A stretch of 64,000 nucleotides of DNA from Burkholderia metallica (GTDB lineage: Bacteria; Pseudomonadota; Gammaproteobacteria; Burkholderiales; Burkholderiaceae). The stretch is taken from positions 1,178,001-1,242,000 of the forward strand of contig NZ_CADFDB010000001.1 of the NCBI RefSeq assembly GCF_902832845.1, read 5' to 3'. Numbering within the stretch: position 1 is the stretch's first letter; each line of letters begins with the position of its first letter. The notes under the pieces were generated by a model. The model ran no database searches and was not told the origin of the DNA. It was given only the letters and a program-made list of their open reading frames with translations. A program made the position numbers and the translations under genes. Of the stretch, positions 8,746 through 21,049 are shown piece after piece.

Positions 8746-10167
8746 TCAACTCGAGCCCGAGTGCTTCTTGTCGATCACGTACCACCAGACCACGGCGATC
8801 AACGCATAAAAAGCGGTGCGCGAGCCGAACATCATCCAGTAATCGCCTTGCTGGACCGCAAAGGTCGCGTACGAGAATACCTTCGCCATCAGCCACAGCA
8901 TCAGCACGCCGCCGCGCATCGTGACCAGGATCTGCAACGCGGCCAGCGCGCCATACACGACGCCAGTCATCGCGACAAAGGCTGCCCCGCCGGCATAACC
9001 GAACCAGTACACGGGCACTGCCATGTTTCCCATCGTGAACGTGACGTCGTCGAATATGAACGCCTTGAGCAGCCGAGGCTCCATGTACGACATCATCAGG
9101 TCACGCAAACCGCTCGGTTCCGAATCGTCGAAAAAAGTCGGCATCGTCCAGGAAGCGAGCGAGTGCACGAAACGCCAGAACGCCTCCGCGCCGCCCAGCG
9201 CCGGCGCCGTGAACATCTGCGCATCGCCGTCCACCACGTACCAGGGCTGCCCCTGCAGCAGAAAACGCGAAGAGATCACGTCGGCCACTTCCAGACCCTG
9301 CCCGCGGTACGCATAAATGATCGAAACGGTGCCGAGCAAGAGCGCCAGCCCCGCGCCGATTCCCAGATAGCGAACGACCGGTTTGCCGTTCATCGCATGA
9401 ATCGCGATGAATGGTGCCAGCGAGCACAGGCCGATATGCAGCACCGCCATGAACTGCTCGCCATGCAGCACGTTCAGCCCGAGGTCGACTGCCATCGTGA
9501 CGATCGCCAGCCCCCGGATACGCTTGTCGGAACTGGTCGCGATGGTGCCCAGCAAAAAACCCATGAAGGTCTGATTGTTCAGGAACAGGTTGAACATCGC
9601 CCCGTTCGATGCATCGTTACGCAACGCATACCGGTTGATGCCGGAAAACATCGAGAACCCCGACGTCAGACCCGCGAGCACGCCGGTCGCGATGATTGCG
9701 GCCGCAAGCACGAAGCCCGTCGCAATGCTGATCGGTTGCAACGCGATCCGCGCTCTGACCGGCTTGTGCGACGGACGCTCGTCCAGGAGCCTGTCGAATG
9801 CGACGAGCGCACAGACGACAAAGATCAGATAGAACGTCAGGAGCCGGCTGAACGCGCCGGTCGCTTCCCCGGAGATATCGGTTTCCCGAAGGTATCCGCC
9901 GTTCTCCAGTCCGACGCCGGCGAGGAATGCGGTCAGGCCGATCGCGAGCACGTAGAGCACCGACACGGCAAACACTGGCCGATACTTGACCAGGACGACA
10001 AGCCCCAGTGTCGCCATCAGCAACGTGCACGTCGCGCTCGGCTCCGTCACGCCGAGCGACGGCAGCATCGCATTGATCAGCAACCCGAGCGCAAGCAGCG
10101 TCGCTATCGTCACGCCGCTTGCCGATAGGGCACTGACCTGTATCGCTCGCGTAGTCTTGTCCGTCAT
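8746..10167 (-). CDS. Wzy-like O-antigen/EPS polymerase membrane protein
   Basis: About 473 residues with ten or more hydrophobic segments and a long hydrophilic loop in the second half, the architecture of Wzy-type polymerases that join repeat units in the periplasm. Sequence conservation in this family is low, so the call rests on topology and on position between wzc-like and acyltransferase genes. The frame extends to 10215, but the start at 10167 (MTDKTTRAIQ) is chosen because a GGA lies about 8 nt upstream and the longer version would start 2 nt from the wzc stop with no ribosome-binding site. The gap to wzc is 49 bp. Confidence 0.72.
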   Translation of the reverse strand: MTDKTTRAIQVSALSASGVTIATLLALGLLINAMLPSLGVTEPSATCTLLMATLGLVVLVKYRPVFAVSVLYVLAIGLTAFLAGVGLENGGYLRETDISGEATGAFSRLLTFYLIFVVCALVAFDRLLDERPSHKPVRARIALQPISIATGFVLAAAIIATGVLAGLTSGFSMFSGINRYALRNDASNGAMFNLFLNNQTFMGFLLGTIATSSDKRIRGLAIVTMAVDLGLNVLHGEQFMAVLHIGLCSLAPFIAIHAMNGKPVVRYLGIGAGLALLLGTVSIIYAYRGQGLEVADVISSRFLLQGQPWYVVDGDAQMFTAPALGGAEAFWRFVHSLASWTMPTFFDDSEPSGLRDLMMSYMEPRLLKAFIFDDVTFTMGNMAVPVYWFGYAGGAAFVAMTGVVYGALAALQILVTMRGGVLMLWLMAKVFSYATFAVQQGDYWMMFGSRTAFYALIAVVWWYVIDKKHSGSS

Positions 10168-10216: not shown

Positions 10217-12532
10217 TCACGCGACGTTTCTCAGCAGTCCCTTTCTCAATCTGTCCCACGCCTTGAACAGAAATGCATCGGGTACGACATCGCCGGAATC
10301 CACTTGCGACCTGACTTCTTTCGTCTGCCGACGGGCATTCGCGTAATAGCTCGAATGCAACGGTGAAGGCCGGAAACCGTTGAACACCAGCCCGTCCACG
10401 TTCACGCCGACCCGGTTCAGATTCCGGATCGCTTCCGTCACGCCCGCGTAGCTGACCGCACCTTGCCGCGCTACCATCAACGTGACGTCCGCGAGCCGCG
10501 ACAACATCGCGACGTTCGCCACCGGGCGCGCCGGCGGCGCATCCACGACGATCACGTCGTATTCGCGCCGCAGCGAGGCGATCAGCGGTTCGAGCCTCTC
10601 CGCTCCGAACAGGTGCCGCCCTGGTTCGACATTCCTTCCGCCGGGCAGCACGTCGAAGTTTTCGCGGACGTGGACGATCGCGTTCCCGAGTTCCAGCGAG
10701 CCCTTCAGTACGTCGGACAAACCCTTCTGGGATTTCACCGACACGTGTCGATCGACGCTCGATCCGTCTGCGTCGGCACGAACGAGCAAGGTTTTGAGGC
10801 CGCTTTCCGAGAACAGGGAGGCCAGATTGGCGGAAATCATCGACCGACCCTGCCCCGGCTCGGGAGACGTAATCAGCACGGCTCTTGATTTACCGTCCTC
10901 GGCCGCTTTCCCGTAACGCAACAGCACGGCGAGATTGTCCAGCGCTTCGGCGAGCGGCGTATCGGGGTGCTCCCTTGCGGCGATATACGGCGTTCGTTCT
11001 CTCCGGTCGGCCTCGACCTGATGCTGCGAGATCGGGAGCACGCCCAGCATCGGCACGCCAGCTACTTCCTCCAGATGTTCCGGACTCCGAACACGCTGGA
11101 AGAACAGCGCACAGGCTTGTGCCGCAGCCACACCCAGTATCAGCCCGATCGCCGCGCCCAACACGACCACGACTGCCCGCTTCGGCTGAACCGGTTTGTC
11201 GCTGACAACGGCCGGGTCGATGACGGACGCGTTGCCGACCGTGCCGGCCTTGGCAATTTGCAGCTGCTGCGCGTTGTTCATCAACCCGATGTAGAGCTGA
11301 TTGTTGACCTCCACGTCGCGCGACAGACGCAAGTAAGTCTGTTGCTGCGACGGCAGGCGCTCAACCTTGCGTTTCAGTTCCGCCGACTGCTGGTCGAGCG
11401 TCTTCAGCTTGTTGGCGACAGCGGTAAGCTGAGGTTGCCCGGCGACATACTTCGACGCCATATCCTGATACTCGAGCCTGGCTTCGAGCCGTGACTTCTC
11501 GACAAGCGCCAGCTGGTCGATCAGTAATTGCACGTCGCCTTGCGAATCGATCGAGCCTTCCGAATTGCGAAACTCCTTCAGCGCACGCTCAGCCTGCTCC
11601 AGCCGCGCCTTCACGAGCGGCAATTGCGTGTCTAGAAATGCCAGGCTGTGCTCGGAGTCTTCCGAGCGACGCTTTGCCTTGGCATCCAGATAAGCGGCTG
11701 CAATCGCGTTGAGCAACCGTGCGGCAAACACCGGGTCGGGATCCTCGAAACTCAGCTGCATGATGCCCGACTGGCGCTTCGTTTCCGCCCCGTTCAGTTT
11801 CTTCAGGATCACCTCGAGCCGCACCGGCGTGGCGACGCGCTTCACGCGAAATTCCGTACCGGGACGCGCCACGATCCGCGCGATGTTCACCCGATAACCG
11901 TTCGCGTCACGCGGTTGACCGACTACCCCCGTCAACACCTCCTGACCGTTGCCGTCCTTCAACACGAAGCGGTTGCCGTCGAGATAATCGAGCGTCAGCT
12001 TCTTGCCGACCTGCGCATCCGGAACGTCGAATTCCTTGAATTCGATCCGCTCGCCGCCCCACGCCCAGAATGGCGTATTGAACAACGGTTCGACGAGACC
12101 ATTCGGACCTTTCGACAAGACCGAACCGAGCAAACCGCCGACGAGCGGTACGCTGTTGCGGACCGACACGTCCGCCTGCGCGACGGTAGCGTCCATCGCC
12201 TGGGTAACGACCGCGCGCGAGCGAGCGATATCGATCTCACCGACGACGGCCGAGTTCTCGATATCCAGGGCGTTCGAAATCTCCGAAAGCGAGCCCAGTG
12301 CGCTGTGCTTGTTTTCCTGAATCTGTATCAACGTGTCGACGGAGTATATCGGCGTGGCCGTCACCGCATACAGCAGCGCCAGCAGCACACATCCCAGGAA
12401 AATGGCCAGAACAACGCGCCAGTGATCCAGCACGTTTTCCAGCGACTGGACCAGCGTAAAACCAACCCCGTCGCGAGCAATACTTCCCGACCCGTCTCGA
12501 GATTGCTTCGATGAAGGCCTATCCCATGTCAT
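10217..12532 (-). CDS. Wzc-like polysaccharide copolymerase with degenerate tyrosine-kinase domain
   Basis: 771 residues in the PCP-2a layout: an N-terminal Wzz domain with a first transmembrane segment (about residues 38-55), a large periplasmic coiled-coil region, a second transmembrane segment near residue 450, and a cytoplasmic BY-kinase-like domain. The kinase motifs are altered. The Walker A region reads PEPGQGRS, with Arg563 where lysine is expected. Walker A' reads RADADGS (585-591). Walker B is normal (VIVVDAPP, Asp664). The C-terminus has one YY pair instead of a tyrosine cluster. Export and chain-length control are likely retained; autokinase activity is doubtful. GGGAG precedes the start by 8 nt. 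It heads the minus-strand EPS operon. Confidence 0.88.
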   Translation of the reverse strand: MTWDRPSSKQSRDGSGSIARDGVGFTLVQSLENVLDHWRVVLAIFLGCVLLALLYAVTATPIYSVDTLIQIQENKHSALGSLSEISNALDIENSAVVGEIDIARSRAVVTQAMDATVAQADVSVRNSVPLVGGLLGSVLSKGPNGLVEPLFNTPFWAWGGERIEFKEFDVPDAQVGKKLTLDYLDGNRFVLKDGNGQEVLTGVVGQPRDANGYRVNIARIVARPGTEFRVKRVATPVRLEVILKKLNGAETKRQSGIMQLSFEDPDPVFAARLLNAIAAAYLDAKAKRRSEDSEHSLAFLDTQLPLVKARLEQAERALKEFRNSEGSIDSQGDVQLLIDQLALVEKSRLEARLEYQDMASKYVAGQPQLTAVANKLKTLDQQSAELKRKVERLPSQQQTYLRLSRDVEVNNQLYIGLMNNAQQLQIAKAGTVGNASVIDPAVVSDKPVQPKRAVVVVLGAAIGLILGVAAAQACALFFQRVRSPEHLEEVAGVPMLGVLPISQHQVEADRRERTPYIAAREHPDTPLAEALDNLAVLLRYGKAAEDGKSRAVLITSPEPGQGRSMISANLASLFSESGLKTLLVRADADGSSVDRHVSVKSQKGLSDVLKGSLELGNAIVHVRENFDVLPGGRNVEPGRHLFGAERLEPLIASLRREYDVIVVDAPPARPVANVAMLSRLADVTLMVARQGAVSYAGVTEAIRNLNRVGVNVDGLVFNGFRPSPLHSSYYANARRQTKEVRSQVDSGDVVPDAFLFKAWDRLRKGLLRNVA

Positions 12533-13467
12533 GCATCAGCTCCCAAATTGCCATCCTGTCGAGCGTCTTGCGACAGTGCCCGCGATTGATCACACCGCTC
12601 GCGCCGCTCGCCCCCGGGCCATTCTTTCGGCACCTCACGCAAGGCATGTGTCCTGTGTCCGCCCACCGGCATGCTGTAACGCACCGCCGATTCGTTGCGC
12701 AGAAGACGCATGACCTCGCTTGTCCGGCTCACTATGCGATAGATGGGCGGTTTTCTGAGTGCGATGCCTTACATTAAGCGGCACCGGGGAAACGAATCGC
12801 CGGGTGGCCAACTCGCTCACGCCAAGCCGGAGGCCGGTTCGAAAGCGTCGCCCGACTCCCCGGAACGCGCCCGATCTGTAAGGTTTGGCCCTGTTTTCGC
12901 CGTCCTGGCCGCGCAAGCGCAAGACGAATCGGCGACAGCCCGCAAGCAACGCATCGGTTTCGCGATCCTCATCTTGGTGAACTAGCGCACATCCCTTTTC
13001 CGGTGCTTCATACAACATCGGCCATGCGGGAACGAACCTCGGCCTGCACACCGTCGTATCGAGCCGTCAATTGCCCGATAGCGTGCTCCGGATCGCAAGT
13101 CTGCCGACAAGCCCGGCGGCATGCGATGAGGTCGACGTGCCGGACGGCCGGTTGATCGACACGGCGAGCGAGTGAGGAAACACGTGAGGTCTTCGGTCGA
13201 ACGCGGGTGCGCGAGCGTCCCGTCATCTGCGGGACGTCGGCTGCTTCGCGATGCGGCAACGTATTGACGGTCAGCCCGTCTTCACGTCGCTGCGAACGGG
13301 GACAACCGGGCAAGGAATGCCGGCACGCATTCCGCGCGGCACCGCTGTCACCGTCGTTGGCTTCCGGACGCCGGAACGCGTTCCGGTGTGACAAGCACGC
13401 GATCGGCAAGACGGCCCGGACCGTGGCGAACGTCGACGCGCATCGCACCCATATTTCTCGTTTAACC
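12533..13467. other. 935-bp divergent control region between wzc-like and wza-like genes
   Basis: This region must contain the promoters of both EPS transcripts. Its short open frames have no ribosome-binding sites or family resemblance. The length is far more than two simple sigma-70 promoters need and suits enhancer-dependent or multi-input regulation. Two GG-N10-GC elements resembling sigma-54 promoters point toward wza: 12887-12900 (preceded by TTT) and 13322-13335 (with a full GGCACG). From memory, the c-di-GMP/RpoN-controlled Bep EPS locus of B. cenocepacia has a similar gene set; whether this is that locus is inference. Confidence 0.5.
13320..13336 (+). promoter_or_regulatory. Candidate sigma-54 promoter upstream of wza-like gene
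   Basis: CCGGCACGCATTCCGCG matches the -24 block of the sigma-54 consensus (GGCACG) and keeps the GG/GC pairs 10 nt apart. The -12 block is CCGC rather than TTGC. It lies about 130 bp before the wza start. GG-N10-GC is common by chance in DNA this GC-rich, so this is only a candidate. Confidence 0.25.
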
Positions 13468-14664
13468 ATGCTGAATGACGACATGAGCAGCCACCCATCA
13501 TTCGACACGTCGGTGCCGAACAAGAACAATCCCGCGGGGCGTCGAATGCGCGCCGTGTTTTGCCTGGCGCTCGCCGCGCTGCTTTCCGCGTGTGCGTTTG
13601 CGCCGGGCCAGCACATGGCGGACACGCCCGCATTGCCGGTCACGACCGACGGCAACGGCGACGTGACCAGTGACATGAAGGTGCCGGTCAGGCAGATCGA
13701 CCTGACGCTGATCAGCCAGATTCGTGCGGAGCAGAAGAGCCGCACCGCGTTGCCCGTCCCGGGCAGCCTGCTCGGCAAGCCGGACGGCTACCGGGTCGGT
13801 GCGGGCGACGTGTTGCAAATCACCGTATGGGATCACCCGGAATTCGCGACCGCGGCCGGCCAGCCGACGCCGAACACGAAATCAGCCGACGCCGCGCCCG
13901 GCTTCGTCGTCGATAGCGACGGCAACGTACAGTTCCCGTACATGACGCGACCGATCCACGTCGCCGGCAAGACCGCGGCGCAGATCCAGCGCGAAGTCAG
14001 CGCCGAACTCAGGAAGGTGTTCATCAAGCCGCAAGTGACGGTTCGCGTCGCATCGTTCCGTGCCGGACAGATCTATGTGGATGGTGAGGTGCGCGCCCCC
14101 GGTTCGCAGGCGATCAACGACATTCCGATGACGCTGGTCGAAGCCGTCAATCGCGCGGGGGGCTTTGCACCGACCGCGGATCAGAGTCGCGTGACGATCA
14201 CGCGCGATGGAACGACCTATCCGGTGAATGTCGCGCGGATGATGCAGACGGGCGGGAACCCTGCCGCCATCATGCTGAAACCGGGCGATCTGCTGCATGT
14301 GAGCGCCCGCGACGACAATCCCGTGTACGTGACGGGCGAAGTGAACAAACCGCTGGCCGTGCCGCTGCAACGCGACGGCTCGCTCTCGCTGAACGAGGCA
14401 CTCGCGCAGGCCGGCCAGCTCAATCAGCAGACGTCGAACGCCAAACAGGTTTTCGTACTGCGCAAGGCCGACGACAGCGCCCCCGTCGTCTATCGACTCG
14501 ACATGAAGTCACCGGTTTCGATGCTGCTGGCGAACCAGTTTCCGCTGGCGTCGAAGGACATCGTCTATGTCGACAACACCGGGCTCGTTCGCGCGAGCCG
14601 CGTGCTGAACCTGCTGTTGCCGGCGATCAGCGCCGGTTTGACCGGCGCGCTCGTCACGAAGTAA
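13468..14664 (+). CDS. Wza-like outer-membrane polysaccharide export lipoprotein
   Basis: 398 residues. A lipoprotein signal follows a short N-terminal extension: MRAVFCLALAALLSAC with the lipobox Leu-Ser-Ala-Cys. The mature part has the Poly_export domain (YRVGAGDVLQITVWDHPEF) followed by SLBB-type repeats (QIYVDGEVRAPGSQ, then PVYVTGEVNKPLAVPL). This is the Wza architecture, an octameric outer-membrane channel for EPS that docks to Wzc. The start is uncertain: ATGs at 13468, 13483 and 13546 are all in frame and none has a strong ribosome-binding site. Starting at 13468 puts the lipobox Cys at residue 42; starting at 13546 puts it at residue 16. Divergent from the wzc operon. Confidence 0.9.
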   Translation: MLNDDMSSHPSFDTSVPNKNNPAGRRMRAVFCLALAALLSACAFAPGQHMADTPALPVTTDGNGDVTSDMKVPVRQIDLTLISQIRAEQKSRTALPVPGSLLGKPDGYRVGAGDVLQITVWDHPEFATAAGQPTPNTKSADAAPGFVVDSDGNVQFPYMTRPIHVAGKTAAQIQREVSAELRKVFIKPQVTVRVASFRAGQIYVDGEVRAPGSQAINDIPMTLVEAVNRAGGFAPTADQSRVTITRDGTTYPVNVARMMQTGGNPAAIMLKPGDLLHVSARDDNPVYVTGEVNKPLAVPLQRDGSLSLNEALAQAGQLNQQTSNAKQVFVLRKADDSAPVVYRLDMKSPVSMLLANQFPLASKDIVYVDNTGLVRASRVLNLLLPAISAGLTGALVTK

Positions 14665-14682
14665 CCGTCGCGCATAACCGCA

Positions 14683-14716
14683 GGTCCGGTTCGGTGCGTG
14701 CGCAACGAACCGGACC
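14683..14716 (+). terminator. Hairpin after wza-like gene
   Basis: An 11-bp perfect stem, GGTCCGGTTCG (14683-14693) with CGAACCGGACC (14706-14716), starts 18 bp after the wza stop. There is no T-run, so it could terminate weakly or simply protect the transcript end. Confidence 0.5.
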
Positions 14717-14757
14717 GCGCACATCGTATTACCGCCGCGAAATCGCCCGCCTCCAGG

Positions 14758-14822
14758 GCTACATCCGATTCGACAGCGTCGGGCGGCCCGTGCGTCGCCG
14801 CCCGCGTGGTCCGGTCGAGCCC
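14758..14822. repeat. 65-bp direct repeat, copy A
   Basis: This copy matches 17792-17856 at 61 of 65 positions, in the same orientation and with no gaps; similarity stops abruptly at both ends. The copies bracket the beta-helix gene. Copy A contains a CGGGCGG...CCGCCCG hairpin that copy B weakens by one mismatch. Confidence 0.9.
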
Positions 14823-14854
14823 TTCCCGACTGCCCGTCGACATGAAGACGCGCG

Positions 14855-17284
14855 TTATTGCCCCAGTCTCGGAATCATCGTGACGGTGGGCGCGGCACTA
14901 TAGGCGACCGTCATGGCGTCGCCCGGTTTGAGATCGACCATGCCGTTCGTCAATCCGGTCGCATATGCCTGCTGCCCGTTTCGCGACACGCTGATTGACG
15001 ATACCGTACCGCCGGCGACCGACATGCTGACCGCGCTCGGGTTGTTGTTCGTAAACCTCCACGGCGAAGCACCCACTGTCGTCACAACCGGCGTCAGTTG
15101 CACGCCGAAACCGACAAAGCCGTTTTGCGCGATATTGTCTTCGCTCCACGACGTGTAGGACCATGAACTCGATGAGATCAGCGAGTCGATTGCGCGAGGA
15201 TAATTGACTGGCTGGGCCATATAGTTTCCCCGCAGCTTGAGCGATGCCCCGGCCGTGAGCGTCCCGATCGTCACAAGGCGAGCAAACCCGTTGCAGCAGC
15301 CGATATTTTCCCCAGTATTGCCGCTGACCTCGGTGAACGACGTGCAGGATCCGTCCACGTAGATCCCGTCCTTCGCGATGCCGGACAGCTGGTTCTTCGA
15401 GACGATGCACCCTCGGGTGTTGTACAGGGTGATTCCGGAAACGGCGCTCAATCCGCCGGTCCCGGTGAACGTAATCGACGCGCCACTGGCAATTCCGCTG
15501 CCCGTGAAATTATTGGACAGCGTAACGGTCGGGCCATTTCCGTTACCGGAAACCGATGTCACGTAAGTGCCGACCGGGATATTCGTTCCGGATACGCCTT
15601 GCCCCACCGCACAGCCGCGTGCCGACGGATACGGCGTAAACGTCAGCATGTTGGTTCCCGCCGCCGATGCAGCCGAAGTCGTGATCGTTTGAGACGTCAT
15701 GCAGACCATCGGAGTAAAGACGATGGAAGCACCGCTCGCCACGGTGCCGGTCGTCGCCTTGCTGAGCGTCACCGAAGTCGCCGCCACACCGGTCACGAAC
15801 GTCCCGGACGCAATGTTGACGCCGCTGACGCTCTGCCCAATCGACACACCCGTCGTTTCATTGCCAGGCGCCCCAAAGCCGTAGTTGTCGTTATAAGCGA
15901 CGCCAGTCGTCGTGGCGAACGTCAGCGACGTGGCGGCACTCGCGGCGGCAGTGGTCGTCGCGATCGTCGTCCCGAACAGGCCGACGCCGGAGAAAATCAC
16001 GGTCCCGCCACTTGGTACGGTCGCATTCTGGCTCAGCGTCACCGTCGATACGCCTGCCGACACGACCGTGCCGATCGGTACGCTCGTCGATCCGTTGAAA
16101 TACCAGGCCGTCATGCCGACGGCAACGCCCGGGGTATTGGCAAAGCTCAGTGTCGTCGACGCCGAGGTCGCACTGATCGTCGTCAACGGGAACCCGTTCT
16201 TGTTGTTCGGATCCCATGCATTGCTGATCATGTTCTGCGAAATATTGACGTGGATGTTGTTTCCGGCCGGCTGCCATAATCCGATCGGTGTTCCCGCCGC
16301 GTTCTTGATCGTGTTGTTGACGATCGTGATATTCGAATTATTAAATCCACTCGTCGCGGTCACGGCCAATGCCGCATAACCGATCGGGCCATTTGGCTCA
16401 TTAACTATCGCGCCGATGTTGGATTGCACCCCGCACGTATCCAGAATATTGTTAGCAACCGTCACGTTATCGTTGCCGTACGACTGGTAAACGCTCGTCA
16501 GCTCTGACGCGACATAAATGCCGGCCCCCATGGGGTTGTAGATCTGATTGTCAGTCACCGTGACGTCTTGAGCACCCACAATCGCTATGCCACGTGCATA
16601 TTTGGTTCCGACGACCCTGTTGTTTGCGATCGTAACGCGGCGAGGACGGACGCCCTCGTTGAAATAACCAACTACCGCGAACGCGTCGTCGCCGCCATTG
16701 ATCACTTCATTATTCGTGATGGTGATGTCCGAGCTTGCCTTGGTAACATGAATGCCGTCGTGCCAGATATTGAGCAGTGTATTGCCGAAAACCTTTCCAT
16801 TGATGCAACTTCGCATTATCGCGCCGCCGCCGGCCGAGTTATTGAACTTGCATCCCGAAATTTCGAACTGGCTGCAATCCAGCATATTGACTGAGCCGGC
16901 GTTCTCATCCGGATAATACGCGGTTGCATTTTTTGAAAAAAATTGTAGATTCCGTACTTTGAAATTACTGACGCCCTTCCAGTAAATAACCGAATTCTGG
17001 CCTTGCAGTGTAGTGCACTGCAAGATCGAGTCCCACCCGGCCCCGATGATCGAGGCTTTAGCGGTCAGCGTATTGCTATACAGGTAGGTCCCCGGTGGAA
17101 AATACAACGGGATCCCGGCATTGAGTGCTGTCTGGAGTGCCGCTGTATCGTCGGTCACACCATCGCCCATCACCCCGAACCGCTTCACACTCATCGGCAG
17201 ATCGACCAGTTCCTGGAGAAGCGTTCTTGCGGTCAGGCCCGTCGCCGTACCAACGATATATGTTGCCGGAAATTCTGCTGTCAT
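14855..17284 (-). CDS. Tailspike-like right-handed beta-helix protein (Pectate_lyase_3 type)
   Basis: 809 residues. The N-terminus has the GDGVTDDTAALQTAL / YFPPGTYLYS signature (39-70) of pectate-lyase-3/tailspike folds. Beta-helix coils rich in asparagine ladders (NITIVNNTI) run to about 355, including HDGIHV (175-180) and GGDDAFAV (197-204), which resembles the acidic site of GH28-like helices. Residues 368-608 hold three related beta-rich repeats. The helix then resumes, and a small C-terminal beta domain (735-805) follows. There is no signal peptide. AGGGG lies 8 nt before the ATG. Local base composition is much AT-richer than the neighbours (22 of 60 G/C in 16921-16980). Likely role: cleavage or binding of the EPS made here, possibly of phage origin. 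Confidence 0.75.
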   Translation of the reverse strand: MTAEFPATYIVGTATGLTARTLLQELVDLPMSVKRFGVMGDGVTDDTAALQTALNAGIPLYFPPGTYLYSNTLTAKASIIGAGWDSILQCTTLQGQNSVIYWKGVSNFKVRNLQFFSKNATAYYPDENAGSVNMLDCSQFEISGCKFNNSAGGGAIMRSCINGKVFGNTLLNIWHDGIHVTKASSDITITNNEVINGGDDAFAVVGYFNEGVRPRRVTIANNRVVGTKYARGIAIVGAQDVTVTDNQIYNPMGAGIYVASELTSVYQSYGNDNVTVANNILDTCGVQSNIGAIVNEPNGPIGYAALAVTATSGFNNSNITIVNNTIKNAAGTPIGLWQPAGNNIHVNISQNMISNAWDPNNKNGFPLTTISATSASTTLSFANTPGVAVGMTAWYFNGSTSVPIGTVVSAGVSTVTLSQNATVPSGGTVIFSGVGLFGTTIATTTAAASAATSLTFATTTGVAYNDNYGFGAPGNETTGVSIGQSVSGVNIASGTFVTGVAATSVTLSKATTGTVASGASIVFTPMVCMTSQTITTSAASAAGTNMLTFTPYPSARGCAVGQGVSGTNIPVGTYVTSVSGNGNGPTVTLSNNFTGSGIASGASITFTGTGGLSAVSGITLYNTRGCIVSKNQLSGIAKDGIYVDGSCTSFTEVSGNTGENIGCCNGFARLVTIGTLTAGASLKLRGNYMAQPVNYPRAIDSLISSSSWSYTSWSEDNIAQNGFVGFGVQLTPVVTTVGASPWRFTNNNPSAVSMSVAGGTVSSISVSRNGQQAYATGLTNGMVDLKPGDAMTVAYSAAPTVTMIPRLGQ

Positions 17285-18005
17285 CTAAGCGCCCCTGGCA
17301 TCGCAATCCATCGCGACGCAAAAAATTAAATAGCCGGATTATTGGCGATCGGCCAATCTCGTATACATCGTTTCGCGACCATGTCGCCTGCCTTCAATGC
17401 ACGCATGCTCGCGCCGAATCGCATGCGCCTTTCTTAGAGTAGAGGCGGTTTTCACGACGAAATGTACGTGGACTAACCGAATCAGACAGACGGGTCCGGA
17501 AAATCCTTGCGTGCCCGATACGACAGAAACTCGACAGGGATCGTGGCGCTCCTGCACGCACGGGATGCATATCGATGCCACGCGCAGGAACGGCAGTTCG
17601 ACCACATCTCGATGGACGACGATTTTTTCCTCGGTCGAGTACTTCTTACTCCGCACCGCCACCGCAATCGGGAACGATGACCGTCTTTTCATCGCGTCTC
17701 ACGACCGCGCCGAATAAAGATCGTATGTATCGGTAGAAACACCGATGCTGTAGTCGAACTACATTCTTACCATTAGTCGCTGCTGAGAGTCGCTACATCC
17801 GATTCGACAGCGTCGAGCGGCCCGTGCGTCGCCGCCCGCGTTGACCGATCGAGCCCAACCGGCCGTAACGATTCCCCGCCTGGCCTGGCATGCCGACGCG
17901 CAACCACCCTGCATCGCCAGCCGAATGCGTCCGGTGCGAATCCACCGGACGTGCGCAGCTCCAGACATCATTCGAACAACCGGCAATACGATCATGGAGA
18001 GCAAC
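17285..18005. other. AT-richer intergenic region between beta-helix and GH3 genes
   Basis: About 720 bp that should hold the promoters of both divergent genes. Open frames here have no ribosome-binding sites and no recognisable domains. Two small dyads are visible: ATTGGC/GCCAAT at 17341-17357 and ATCGGT/ACCGAT at 17729-17746. The AT-rich composition ends close to 17790, where copy B of the direct repeat begins, so the composition boundary and the repeat coincide. Confidence 0.55.
17792..17856. repeat. 65-bp direct repeat, copy B
   Basis: Partner of the copy at 14758-14822 (61/65 identical, spaced 3,034 bp start to start). It lies about 150 bp upstream of the GH3 start, at the edge where the sequence returns from AT-richer to the local high-GC composition. 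Confidence 0.9.
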
Positions 18006-20207
18006 ATGCGGGACAAACTCTGGCCGGCCGTCGTGCTGGCAGCGACCCTCTGCACCAATGCCTACGCAAGCAACGCCGATTTCAACTCGCAGGGCGATGC
18101 CACCGATGCGTTCGCGTCGGCTGCCGCGCAACGGCGCGCCGACCTGCTCGTGCGCAAGATGACGCTCGACGAAAAACTGCAGTTCATTCATTCGCAATAC
18201 GAAATGTCGAAGGTGCCCGGCGGCGGCGCCGGCTACATCCAGGGCGTGCCGCGGCTCGGCATTCCCGACCTGAACATGGTCGATTCGGCCACGGGGTCCG
18301 GCAGCACGTCGCAGGCCAGCACGACGTTCCCGGCGACGATCGCGGTCGCCGCGAGCTGGGATCGCCGGCTGTCGTACGACTACGGCAAGCAGGTCGCGAT
18401 CCAGTTGCGCGCGCAAGGGTTCGGCATGGGTCTCGGCGGCGGCACCAACCTCGCACGCGAGCCGCGCGGCGGCCGCCTGTTCGAGTATCTCGGCGAGGAT
18501 CCGCTGCTGGCAGGCGACCTGCTCGCCGAACGCACGCTCGCCACGCAGCGGCAGAAGGTCATCGCGACCATCAAGCACTATGCCGGCAACGAACAGGAGC
18601 ACGGCCGGATGGGCGGCAACACGCAGATCGACGAGCGCACGCTGCGCGAACTGTATCTGCTGCCGTTCGAGATCGCCGCGAAGCGCGGGCGGCCCGGCAG
18701 CGTGATGTGCAGCTACAACCGCCTGAACGGCGCGTATGCGTGCGAAAACCCTCACTTGCTGAACGACGTGCTGAAGAACGAATGGGGCTTCCAGGGCCAG
18801 GTGCAGTCCGACTGGGGCGCTACGCATAGCACCGCCGCGTCGATCAACGCCGGGCTCGACGAGGAAGAGGACGTCGGGCCGTCCGTGTACCTGACGCCCG
18901 CGGCCGTCAAGCAGGCGATCGCGAACGGCTCGGTGTCGACCGCACGACTCGACGACATGGTGCGGCGCAAGCTCGCGGTGATGATCCGCGTCGGCGTGAT
19001 GGACGATCCGGCCAAGGGCGGCGGCACGATCGATTTCGCGGCCGCGAACCGGTTCGCGCAAACCGCTTCCGAGCAATCGATCGTACTGCTGAAGAACGAC
19101 GGCAACCAGCTGCCGTTGGTCGCATCGGCGTTGTCGCGTATCGCCGTGATCGGCGGCCACGCCGACGCGGCCGTGCTGTCGGGCGGCGGCTCGGGCAACA
19201 CGCGCGACCCCGTATCGGGATCGTTCGCGGGCTGCGGCGGCCTCACGTTCGGTTCGTCGACCGGATGCAGCTGGTGGCGCAATCCGTGGCTGAAGGTCGA
19301 CGTGCCCATCGTCGCGGCGATCCGCGCGCTCGCGCCGGCCGCGCAGGTCACGTATGCGGGCAACAGCGACCAGCAGTCGCCGTTCCGCGCGTACACGCAG
19401 CAGGAGATCGACCAGGCCGCGGCACTCGCGGGCCGTTCGGACGTCGCGATCGTCGTGGTCGCGCAGCCGGCCGGCGAGGATTTCGGCGATCTCCAGAGCC
19501 TGAGCCTCGCGAACCCGTCGAACCAGGATGCGCTCGTCGAGGCCGTCGCCCGCGCGAATCCGCACACGATCGTCGTCGTCCAGAGCGGCAACCCGGTGCT
19601 GATGCCGTGGAAGGACCAGGTCTCGGCGATCGTCGAGGCGTGGTATCCGGGCGAAGCCGGCGGCAAGGCGATCGCGAACGTGCTGTTCGGCGCGGTCAAC
19701 CCGTCCGGCAAGCTGCCCGTCACGTTCCCCGCGCGCGATCAGGATTCGCCGACCTGGGGGCAAAACGGTGCGTTCGACAACGATCCCGTCTATGCGGAAA
19801 AGCTGAACATGGGCTATCGCTGGTATGACGCGCGCAACATCAAGCCGATGTTCGAGTTCGGCTACGGGCTGTCGTACACGCACTTCGCGTATTCGGGTCT
19901 GTCGGTGTCGCGGCAATGGGACGGCTCGCTGAGCGTCGCGTTTACCGTGCGCAACGACGGGCGCGTTGCGGGCGCGGAAACGCCGCAGGTCTATCTGGGC
20001 GTGCCGTACAAGGACGAACCGCCGAAGCGGCTGGTCGGCTGGGAGAAGATCCGGCTGAATCCGGGCGAGGCGCAGCGCGTGCGCGTGACCGTGTCGCCGC
20101 GGATGCAAAGCGTGTGGGATACGTCGCGTAACGGCTGGCGGATGGTGCCGGGCGGAACGGTGTATGTGGGGGCGTCATCGCGGGATATCCGGTTGCACGG
20201 TAACTGA
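18006..20207 (+). CDS. Secreted GH3 beta-glucosidase-like glycoside hydrolase
   Basis: 733 residues with an N-terminal signal peptide (MRDKLWPAVVLAATLCTNAYA). The GH3 N-domain shows LAREPRGGRLFEYLGEDP, KHYAGNEQE and the nucleophile motif VQSDWGATHS (Asp269). The C-domain and a terminal fibronectin-III-like domain (FGYGLSYTHFAY onward) complete the BglX-type layout. The start at 18006 is chosen over the ATG at 17994 because GGAGA lies 6 nt before it and the signal peptide then begins directly. The enzyme should act in the periplasm or outside the cell on beta-linked oligosaccharides. Being next to the EPS genes, it may trim the polymer or process released fragments; specificity is not readable. 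Confidence 0.9.
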   Translation: MRDKLWPAVVLAATLCTNAYASNADFNSQGDATDAFASAAAQRRADLLVRKMTLDEKLQFIHSQYEMSKVPGGGAGYIQGVPRLGIPDLNMVDSATGSGSTSQASTTFPATIAVAASWDRRLSYDYGKQVAIQLRAQGFGMGLGGGTNLAREPRGGRLFEYLGEDPLLAGDLLAERTLATQRQKVIATIKHYAGNEQEHGRMGGNTQIDERTLRELYLLPFEIAAKRGRPGSVMCSYNRLNGAYACENPHLLNDVLKNEWGFQGQVQSDWGATHSTAASINAGLDEEEDVGPSVYLTPAAVKQAIANGSVSTARLDDMVRRKLAVMIRVGVMDDPAKGGGTIDFAAANRFAQTASEQSIVLLKNDGNQLPLVASALSRIAVIGGHADAAVLSGGGSGNTRDPVSGSFAGCGGLTFGSSTGCSWWRNPWLKVDVPIVAAIRALAPAAQVTYAGNSDQQSPFRAYTQQEIDQAAALAGRSDVAIVVVAQPAGEDFGDLQSLSLANPSNQDALVEAVARANPHTIVVVQSGNPVLMPWKDQVSAIVEAWYPGEAGGKAIANVLFGAVNPSGKLPVTFPARDQDSPTWGQNGAFDNDPVYAEKLNMGYRWYDARNIKPMFEFGYGLSYTHFAYSGLSVSRQWDGSLSVAFTVRNDGRVAGAETPQVYLGVPYKDEPPKRLVGWEKIRLNPGEAQRVRVTVSPRMQSVWDTSRNGWRMVPGGTVYVGASSRDIRLHGN

Positions 20208-20223
20208 TCGCCGATGAACCAAC

Positions 20224-20258
20224 CGGGGGAGCCGCGCATGCCGTGCCCGGCTCCCCCG
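20224..20258 (+). terminator. Terminator-like hairpin after GH3 gene
   Basis: CGGGGGAGCCG and CGGCTCCCCCG form an 11-bp perfect stem with a 13-nt loop, 17 bp after the GH3 stop and followed by CGTTTG. It lies between convergent genes and may serve both strands. Confidence 0.65.
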
Positions 20259-20282
20259 CGTTTGCCCATCCGCTGACGATCT

Positions 20283-20471
20283 TTACCGGAACATCAACGC
20301 CAGCAACATCGCCAGCGCGGCGATAGCGGCTATCCCCGCCGCGATGCCGGCCAGATGCGCGGCGACCACCACGCCGGCAGGCAGGCGCATCGGCGCCGCC
20401 CTGTACGCGTTGTCCGGCGAGCGGACACGCGCTACCGGTCGGGCCCGCGATCGCGACCCGACGCCGGCCAT
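20283..20471 (-). CDS. Small single-span membrane protein coupled to DUF4865 gene
   Basis: A 62-residue frame whose ATG overlaps the stop of the DUF4865 gene as TGATG, the usual geometry for translational coupling. The N-terminal 27 residues are arginine-rich and polar. Residues 33-60 form one strongly hydrophobic alanine/leucine helix ending MLLALMFR. This gives a predicted single-span, positive-inside membrane peptide. No family is recognised. The function is unknown, but the coupling implies production in proportion to the DUF4865 protein. Confidence 0.6.
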   Translation of the reverse strand: MAGVGSRSRARPVARVRSPDNAYRAAPMRLPAGVVVAAHLAGIAAGIAAIAALAMLLALMFR

Positions 20472-21049
20472 CACGCGCCGCTCCCTTCCAGCGTATCGAG
20501 CAACGGCCTGGCCAGATGCATGACCTGGTACACCGTGCCCGCGCCACTGTCGTCCGGCTCGTGTTCCGATACGCGTATCCGCGTCAGCCGCCAGCGTAGC
20601 GGGTCGACGCTGACGGCCGCCGCGATCACGCCCTGCCGGGCGGCCGCTTCGCGATTGCGCGCGATCTCCTGTGCCAGCGTCGCGTCGAGATCGGCATCCG
20701 CCGGAATATCGACGGCCTCCAGCAGCACGAAACGCGCGGTCGACGCACTGCCCTTGCGCGCATCGAGCGCGACCTGCACGTCGATCGGCGCGCGTCCGAA
20801 GCTGTCCGTCACGACCCGGTAGCGGCCGTCCGTGACGAAGCCGGCAAATGCCTGTTCGTTGCGCCACAGATAAAGCGATGCATAGCCGTTTTCCGTCGCA
20901 CCGTAGCGGCCCGCCTCGCGCAGCAGGAACCCCTTGAACACCAGCTCAGGCGTATCGTCCCAAAGCCTGCCGCGCTCGCGCACGCGATCGCGGATGATGT
21001 CGAGGTCGTAGTCCGCCGGCAGGCGATGCACGTAGTACGCGGTCAGCAT
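20471..21049 (-). CDS. DUF4865 family protein
   Basis: 192 residues beginning MLTAYYVHRLPADYDLDIIRDRV, a pattern I associate with DUF4865 proteins (dimeric alpha/beta-barrel-like, function unknown). The frame extends to 21118, but the start at 21049 has AGGAG 7 nt upstream. It is soluble, with no signal peptide. It is transcribed divergently from a LysR-type regulator across a short promoter region with two TTCAA/TTGAA dyads, so it is probably that regulator's target. Its stop overlaps the start of a 62-residue membrane protein. Confidence 0.75.
   Translation of the reverse strand: MLTAYYVHRLPADYDLDIIRDRVRERGRLWDDTPELVFKGFLLREAGRYGATENGYASLYLWRNEQAFAGFVTDGRYRVVTDSFGRAPIDVQVALDARKGSASTARFVLLEAVDIPADADLDATLAQEIARNREAAARQGVIAAAVSVDPLRWRLTRIRVSEHEPDDSGAGTVYQVMHLARPLLDTLEGSGA

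Follow-up and report, generated by a model that had tools for sequence, protein, structure and literature searches.

The 65-bp direct repeat that brackets an AT-rich beta-helix gene beside an exopolysaccharide (EPS) cluster of Burkholderia metallica is probably a recombination scar. In the reading we favor, a beta-helix cassette together with the 5' leader of a relative recombined into a wza-spacer-leader-GH3 locus, and the left 65 bp would be what remains of the recipient's own leader. The window analyzed here is the whole 64,000-nucleotide stretch of DNA, and its species is represented by one strain in all comparisons.

The repeat pair and the GH3 leader

The initial annotation had described copies at 14758-14822 and 17792-17856 (both + strand), and realignment confirmed an ungapped match at 61 of 65 positions (94%), far above the runner-up direct repeat in 12000-21000 (32 nt at 81%). 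A search of the 7.55-Mb genome, with 40 of 134 first-look candidates scored, returned these two full-length copies only (E 1.5e-27 and 3.9e-22), which rules out a dispersed element; three lesser matches covered 37-44 nt each at 82-86%. Across 65 Burkholderia genomes, with 14 first-look candidates scored in each, 40 have a near-full copy (at least 48 of the 65 query positions), and the window's own is the only one with two.

Sequence comparison places the right copy as a native part, and the most variable predicted stem-loop, of the leader of a GH3 glycoside hydrolase gene. The gene lies at 18006-20207 (+ strand), with its start suggested by GGAGAGCAACATG in an ORF open from 17841. Its leader occupies 17639-18005 (+ strand); the part from 17730 to the start codon, about 280 nt, is conserved and supports a structure. 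The left copy is a partial leader domain, as positions 63-140 of an RNA model of the leader match 14758-14835 (E 1e-16).

By cell count, the leader alignment carries compensatory changes on the transcribed strand, as looked for in a structured leader RNA. Double-change cells numbered 42, where shuffles gave 15.3 (sd 5.9) and slid controls 6-25, and pairing cells included 131 G-U versus 48 C-A. Counted as base pairs with a double change, the leader has 8, no more than expected from shuffles, 102 of 500 of which reached that value, and a slide of +1 gave 11. Rfam returned no match at E ≤ 1 in 12500-20500. The leader model also had three remote matches in group g24 (per-genome E 2e-5 to 8e-4); these precede a different gene and probably arose by chance. 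The main text of two B. cenocepacia papers on transcription starts and sRNAs (PMC4603805, PMC5688073) does not mention Bcam1328, Bcam1329, or Bcam1330 in the passages matched by these terms, which does not count as evidence of absence for the GH3 gene. Judged by titles or the openings of abstracts, no paper listed by literature searches concerns a Burkholderia leader RNA or depolymerases of the Bep locus.

Edges of the inserted DNA

The DNA between the repeats had been called AT-richer than its surroundings. GC content bears this out, at 56.9% over 14823-17638 against 64.5% in wza, 67.5% in GH3, and 66.8% in the window, so the AT-richness of the inserted DNA is real; what did not hold is its extent, as the non-backbone DNA stops at about 17638 and not at the right repeat. 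Positions 17639-17791 are backbone, common to relatives without the beta-helix gene. In 26 of 28 loci lacking the gene at this place, homology resumes at 17636-17643, some 150 bp short of the right copy; the other two resume at 17668 and 17716, and none does so at 17792. In all 36 loci compared, the leader extends leftward past the position of the copy, starting at 17639-17643 in 34, at 17668 in G025, and at 17716 in G029 (the query itself started at 17639). The comparisons thus directly support an edge near 17639. Relative to empty relatives, the cassette spans 14823-17638 (2,816 bp), with a putative left join at 14822/14823.

On the left, the wza-type polysaccharide export gene (13207-14664, + strand, ORF taken from its first possible start; Poly_export and SLBB domains) is followed by a spacer at 14665-14757 with a hairpin at 14685-14720. 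Relatives have the homologous spacer directly upstream of the GH3 leader. Aligned with their pre-leader sequences, the window's spacer matches G019 best (score 63, with 0 of 200 mononucleotide shuffles as high), followed by G056 (53), G061 (51), and G057 (48). The second-best match, G056, falls outside the recipient clade. The left copy starts at the relatives' spacer/leader junction to within one or two bases. The short segment beyond it, 14823-14854, bears only a marginal likeness to the leader 3' of the repeat (P 0.021 and 0.09) and matches the flank of the beta-helix gene in G049 at 81% over 32.

The beta-helix gene and its carriers

The cassette carries a beta-helix gene at 14855-17284 (- strand, 809 aa) with Pect-lyase_RHGA_epim, Beta_helix, and phage tail-spike matches, preceded by an upstream region (17285-17638) common to G034, G049, and G006. 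Sequence searches matched the protein to PHROG tail spikes and to preneck appendage proteins of solved structures. None of 32 matching phage records spans 80% of the protein's length, and among the 20 listed the highest coverage is 34%. An AlphaFold model was of low quality (mean pLDDT 53.5). A second beta-helix match lies just left of the window (G000:C1:1176037-1176903).

The gene is carried by 9 of 64 other Burkholderia genomes and by one Paraburkholderia, and the closest relative is in G034 (94% aa, 92-95% nt). In seven other species it likewise adjoins the GH3 leader or a leader remnant, and none of these has the left copy. Compared with the whole leader, the left flanks of the nine other carriers held no left-copy remnant beyond shuffles (0 of 9, P 0.46-0.99). 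When just the last 60 bases were compared with 17857-17930, P was 0.022 in G049 and 0.07-0.09 in G007, G018, and the window; we do not take these values as support.

Mosaic ancestry of the locus

Tree and site comparisons mark the locus as a mosaic, with GH3 grouping with one species clade and the 5' leader with another, the one that has the best beta-helix match. In a tree of GH3 18200-19340, the window groups with G019/G057/G018/G043 (support 100/98). In a tree of leader 17639-17790 it groups with G034/G031/G033, with support of 75/94 for all rows and 97/94 without the long-branch row G029. Grouping with G034/G031/G033 is rejected for the GH3 segment (p-AU 1.9e-4) and grouping with G019/G057/G018 for the leader segment (p 0.023), where even the four recipients fail to form one clade (p 0.0147); these p values are post hoc, as we chose the donor and recipient groups with the trees and similarities already in view.

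Diagnostic sites (n = 26) are donor-like at 4 of 4 positions in 17689-17789 and recipient-like at 10 of 10 in 18269-19215. The 12 sites in 17817-18130 are mixed, 7 donor-like and 5 recipient-like, and the switch in ancestry falls between 17790 and 18269. Several of the donor-like states in 17817-18130 are also present in other species. The wza-side spacer of G034 is unrelated to that of the window (score 18, P 0.245), so the exact donor appears to be missing from the genomes compared.

Origin of the left copy

From this pattern we infer a one-sided, homology-facilitated illegitimate event. The ancestral order would have been wza-spacer-leader-GH3, and the incoming DNA, donated by a relative of the G034/G031/G033 clade, would have brought the beta-helix gene with its upstream region and the leader's 5' part. 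Its right crossover would have been homologous, in the leader or within the opening ~265 bp of GH3, and its left join would have formed without homology, just 3' of the variable stem-loop in the recipient's own leader. One-sided insertion of this kind would duplicate the 5' part of the leader. The redundant left leader would later have shed its first 153 bp between the short similar sequences GTACTTC (17639) and GCTACATC (17792), so that the 65-bp stem-loop would persist as a scar where wza and the beta-helix gene converge.

The initial annotation had taken the pair as a sign of a module gained with target duplication, or of a cassette exchangeable between the repeats. The empty site that it named as supporting evidence, wza-single copy-GH3, does occur in relatives (for example, G019, G057, G061, and B. 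arboris), in line with a mobile or exchangeable module that duplicates its target or att site, and the insertion target is the probable source of the duplicated sequence. However, the insert does not run from repeat to repeat: its edge at about 17638/17639 lies 153 bp before the right repeat. This mismatch, together with the seven carriers that have the gene by a leader or leader remnant and lack the left copy, leads us to reject att or target-site duplication. Exchange between the repeats also fails, as two near-full copies occur in 1 of 65 genomes and none of the 36 loci lacks the 5' leader or otherwise presents the expected deletion product (leader minus 17639-17791). A Pfam scan of the 10 ORFs of at least 100 aa in or reaching into the cassette matched the beta-helix gene only and found no recombinase, and nothing pointed to a recombinase site or to recombination between the repeats. 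The repeat is absent from a phage collection (65-bp query) and, as an exact 19-base pattern, from viral contigs, which speaks against a phage-borne repeat. A mobile module is thus largely refuted and very improbable.

It is possible, but unlikely, that the stem-loop was instead copied within the genome from the GH3 leader into the wza/beta-helix spacer, for example by template switching at the hairpin, independently of the gene's arrival. In favor of this, the left copy ends sharply and is missing from 9 of 9 other carriers. The two copies also have A16 and G52 in common, and A16 favors this origin because it is not found in the donor and recipient relatives (G034, G031, G033, G019, G057, and G018). 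Against it, the copy would have had to land by chance within one or two bases of the relatives' spacer/leader junction, and the 4 of 65 differences between the copies equal those between each copy and the nearest other species, which argues against a recent copy and makes recent exchange between the two unlikely. Judged by eye, the left copy is recipient-like at positions 26 and 51 and donor-like at 52, and the right copy is recipient-like at 26 as well; a stretch of 65 bp is too short to assign the left copy to donor or recipient.

Compatible with either origin is retention of the left copy as a terminator stem-loop between the convergent genes, a weak proposal that we regard as doubtful. Hairpins just downstream of the gene in G034, G001, G049, and G006 reach -23.6, -27.5, -19.2, and -19.6 kcal/mol versus means of -15.8, -19.9, -11.9, and -12.7 over 12 mononucleotide shuffles per sequence, and the stem of the left copy is complete, with one mismatch in that of the right. 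The window's own hairpin, at -22.9 kcal/mol, is not beyond its shuffles (mean -20.2, sd 5.2), however; those of G018, G056, and G008 are only 1.5-3.7 kcal/mol beyond their shuffled means, and those of G007 and G037 are less stable than theirs. Folded alone, the left copy has z-scores of -1.43 (+ strand) and -0.50 (- strand), it has no T-run, a terminator scan is empty there, and the wza side already has the hairpin at 14685-14720. We retain the recombination scar as the probable origin of the left copy.

Implications and comparison with known systems

The insertion event itself is ordinary. It illustrates that a direct repeat resembling the signature of a mobile element can be the leftover of homologous exchange between species, and that the point where relatives' homology resumes is a test that separates the two. 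It also points to a variable slot by the Bep EPS cluster, one in which genes resembling phage depolymerases are taken up. The GH3 leader, conserved, seemingly structured, lacking an Rfam match, and apparently undescribed, is a more interesting by-product than the insertion. It is conceivable, if somewhat short of probable, that a structured cis-regulatory RNA not described before lies at 17730-18005 and controls a glycosidase by the Bep cluster, that the 65-bp repeat forms the fast-evolving apical domain of this RNA, and that such leaders are recurrent break points for the exchange of phage-tailspike-like genes at the edge of EPS loci.

The beta-helix protein resembles phage tailspike and depolymerase beta-helix proteins in its Pfam, PHROG tail-spike, and preneck appendage matches; in contrast to them, its gene is bacterial and recurs in other Burkholderia genomes and a Paraburkholderia. 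Mosaic capsule and EPS loci are swapped via conserved flanks. Similarly, variable EPS genes here adjoin a conserved flank, the GH3 leader, and the contents of the slot vary by species, whereas the break points in the window would lie in a putative regulatory leader, leaving a leader fragment as a scar.

In homology-facilitated illegitimate recombination (HFIR), described for three naturally competent species and for E. coli conjugation (PMC3240628), incoming DNA is joined by homology at one end and without it at the other. The window is similar at one end, where ancestry, judged by groups named post hoc, changes across what would be the homologous join; it differs in that the event is inferred from an old mosaic whose left join would have been altered by the further loss of 153 bp. 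The B. cenocepacia Bep EPS cluster comprises Bcam1330-Bcam1341 (PMC3584217), and the window's wza is a Bcam1330-like gene of such a cluster. Within its bounds, the window encodes wza, a Wzc-type kinase, a DUF6418 protein (its counterpart is a 12-TM protein in the published Bep table, PMC3584217), an acyltransferase, an alpha/beta hydrolase, a GT1, a flippase, and two further GT1 proteins, agreeing in gene content and order with Bcam1330-Bcam1338 as compared by domain and order rather than by J2315 sequence. It differs in having an extra beta-helix gene, outside the cluster on the wza side, besides the beta-helix match just left of the window.

Repeat and base composition

The initial annotation described a 65-bp direct repeat bracketing the beta-helix gene (14855-17284, minus strand; 809 aa), between wza (13207-14664, plus strand) and a GH3 glycosidase gene (18006-20207, plus strand). 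We confirmed this repeat: the left copy (14758-14822) and right copy (17792-17856) are identical at 61 of 65 positions without gaps, far above every other repeat in the 9-kb region scanned, and are the only full-length copies in this genome. The AT-richness of the insert was also borne out, with a GC content of 56.9% at 14823-17638 vs 64.5% in wza and 67.5% in the GH3 gene.

The right copy is part of the GH3 leader

We searched 65 Burkholderia genomes, including our own, with the left copy as the query, scoring 14 first-look candidates per genome. Matches at E <= 0.001 were found in 47 genomes, and in 40 (our own and 39 others) the alignment covered 48 or more positions of the 65-bp query; only our own has two copies at this near-full length. 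Flanks were compared at 36 loci (29 from the genome search plus B. arboris, B. multivorans, B. cenocepacia, B. stagnalis, G056, G037, and G001), and at all of them the place of the repeat copy lies within the region upstream of a GH3 gene, here called the leader (17639-18005 in the window). The 296 bases upstream of GH3 matched in 56 of 65 genomes (E <= 0.001), some matches being short. In 20-bp steps, conservation is 73 to 86% at 17639-17718, 92 to 98% at 17719-17798 and from 17859 onward, and about 81 to 89% in the repeat. Most of the 65 bp is deleted in B. stagnalis; in this locus (L009) and in L140 (genome G059), nearly all of the variable leader stem-loop is missing and the flanking blocks are retained. 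Genome G045 has two leader copies on separate contigs (C14:412-704 and C53:412-690), perhaps with two GH3 genes.

Across 54 aligned leaders there is support for a fold on the strand of GH3. Pairing cells make up 95.3%, G-U cells number 131 vs 48 C-A cells, and both-side changes occur in 42 cells vs 15.3 (SD 5.9) in shuffles and 6 to 25 with partners slid. Counted as pairs with a double change, the signal is not above shuffles (8 vs 6.1, 102 of 500 as high), and one slid control gave 11. Neither repeat copy folds exceptionally in isolation (z = -1.43 left, -0.25 right), which, like the pair count, weighs against a structure. Only 2 of 200 shuffles folded better than the 290-nt window leader (z = -2.68). 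The repeat starts where an enclosing helix has its last pair and spans the variable stem-loop within it. Rfam gave no match within 12500-20500. A leader model has matches in 32 of 249 genomes of the family, including 27 from the genus; of seven weaker matches fetched, four (two within the genus and two outside it, in one other genus) have GH3 directly downstream and three do not. Region 17730-18005 is the conserved part of the leader that supports a structure; its core, CCGATGCTGTAGTC-ACTACATTC, recurs ahead of GH3 in a different genus (L162, L163).

Edges of the insert

Of the 28 loci that lack a beta-helix gene in this position, 26 regain homology to the window at 17636-17643, G025 does so at 17668 and G029 at 17716, and none at 17792. 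Thus, the insert ends at about 17638 and, with its left edge inferred, spans about 14823-17638; 17639-17791 is backbone. In G019, homology on the wza side reaches 14757, and leader homology starts at the same G019 base. Recombination between the repeats would remove 17639-17791, a product found in 0 of 36 loci with a query starting at 17639. The suggestion of a mobile or exchangeable cassette is not supported; acquisition by recombination is.

The beta-helix gene and its slot

Close homologues of the beta-helix protein (77 to 94% amino acid identity) occur in 9 of 64 other genomes, the closest in G034; named relatives include B. aenigmatica, B. cenocepacia NCTC13227, B. catarinensis, B. seminalis, and Paraburkholderia ribeironis. 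The gene adjoins the leader in seven (G034, G001, G008, G007, G056, G049, and G006) and lies elsewhere in G018 and G037. No left copy or detectable leader remnant was found within 200 bp beyond the gene's stop in these nine carriers. In G001 (B. aenigmatica) the GH3 gene itself is relocated with its leader (L085), and a 79-bp leader fragment still adjoins the beta-helix gene (L070, about 9229-9307), another leader scar.

What occupies the slot next to the leader varies: across 22 loci (two from G001), it is wza directly in seven and the beta-helix gene in seven, and in others a flippase, a further protein resembling phage depolymerases, or an ORF that by eye looks like a family 2 glycosyltransferase. 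The second phage-depolymerase-like protein (MAFQLQDRVQETTTSTGTGALS near the N terminus; L008:5271-7715, L074:5208-7598, and similar in L071 and L072) occupies the slot alone or adjoining the beta-helix gene; both of the two scanned matched a PHROG pectin-lyase family, and one matched Phage_depo_C. By sequence, the beta-helix protein is similar to tailspikes and preneck appendages of phages. Its predicted structure model is poor, and no N-terminal signal sequence is obvious by eye. Nine further ORFs of at least 100 aa in or reaching into the cassette had no Pfam match. Judging from the neighborhood, we would guess at a role in exopolysaccharide degradation or modification.

Mosaic ancestry

In the GH3-region tree, the window groups with G057, G019, G018, and G043 (97/95), the recipient group; for 18200-19340 alone, this grouping reaches 100/98, and a clade with G034, G031, and G033, the donor group, is rejected (p-AU = 1.9e-4). 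The 152-bp 5' leader instead groups with the donors, at 75/94 with all rows and 97/94 without the long-branch row G029. Both groups were picked after the data were seen. Grouping of the 5' leader with G019, G057, and G018 is rejected at P = 0.023, with groups picked post hoc, and this three-row test is the only fair one. Rejection with all four recipients (P = 1.6e-4) is an unfair test, because the groups are post hoc and the leader tree does not unite the four in one clade (P = 0.0147). At 26 diagnostic sites, donors are uniform, recipients are uniform, and the two differ. All four sites through 17789 are donor-like, and three of these differ from the four other species shown; the 12 at 17817-18130 give a mixed picture (7 donor-like, 5 recipient-like), and all 10 from 18269 are recipient-like. 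On this evidence, with its post hoc groups, the locus is a mosaic.

Origin of the left copy

The spacer between wza and the left copy (14665-14757) resembles the sequence directly preceding the leader in relatives. The top match is the recipient-clade genome G019 (score 63, reached in 0 of 200 mononucleotide shuffles), followed by G056 (53), G061 (51), and G057 (48); the wza-side spacer of G034 is unrelated. The start of the left copy coincides, to one or two bases, with the point where the leader begins in the spacer-matching relatives. The simplest account is that the left copy is a remnant of the recipient's leader, with spacer and leader still adjoining and 153 bp between GTACTTC and GCTACATC lost. 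The two copies differ at 4 of 65 positions, equal to the distance of each from its nearest other species, as expected if they had been orthologues in two species before they came together. The left copy may instead have been made within this genome, an alternative favored by A16, which both copies share and which speaks against an origin of the copies in two species.

With the left copy as a recipient remnant, the right-hand crossover of the incoming DNA would have been homologous, within the leader or a little past it, and the left end would have been attached inside the recipient's leader with no homology involved. The 5' part of the leader would thereby have been duplicated. The redundant left leader would later have lost the part holding the conserved 5' block, a loss perhaps favored because this leader would have been directed into the end of the beta-helix gene. 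Such one-sided joining has been called homology-facilitated illegitimate recombination (PMC3240628). The event is ordinary in kind; the GH3 leader is a side lead worth separate study.

Exopolysaccharide context

Just left of the window (1176037-1176903 of the same contig), a distant beta-helix match (29%) lies at the place expected for a gene like Bcam1339 of the B. cenocepacia Bep exopolysaccharide cluster. The gene order in the window is wza, a Wzc-type kinase, a DUF6418 protein, an acyltransferase, a hydrolase, a glycosyltransferase, a flippase, and two glycosyltransferases. Judged by domains, this order matches Bcam1330-Bcam1338 of the Bep cluster as given in PMC3584217.
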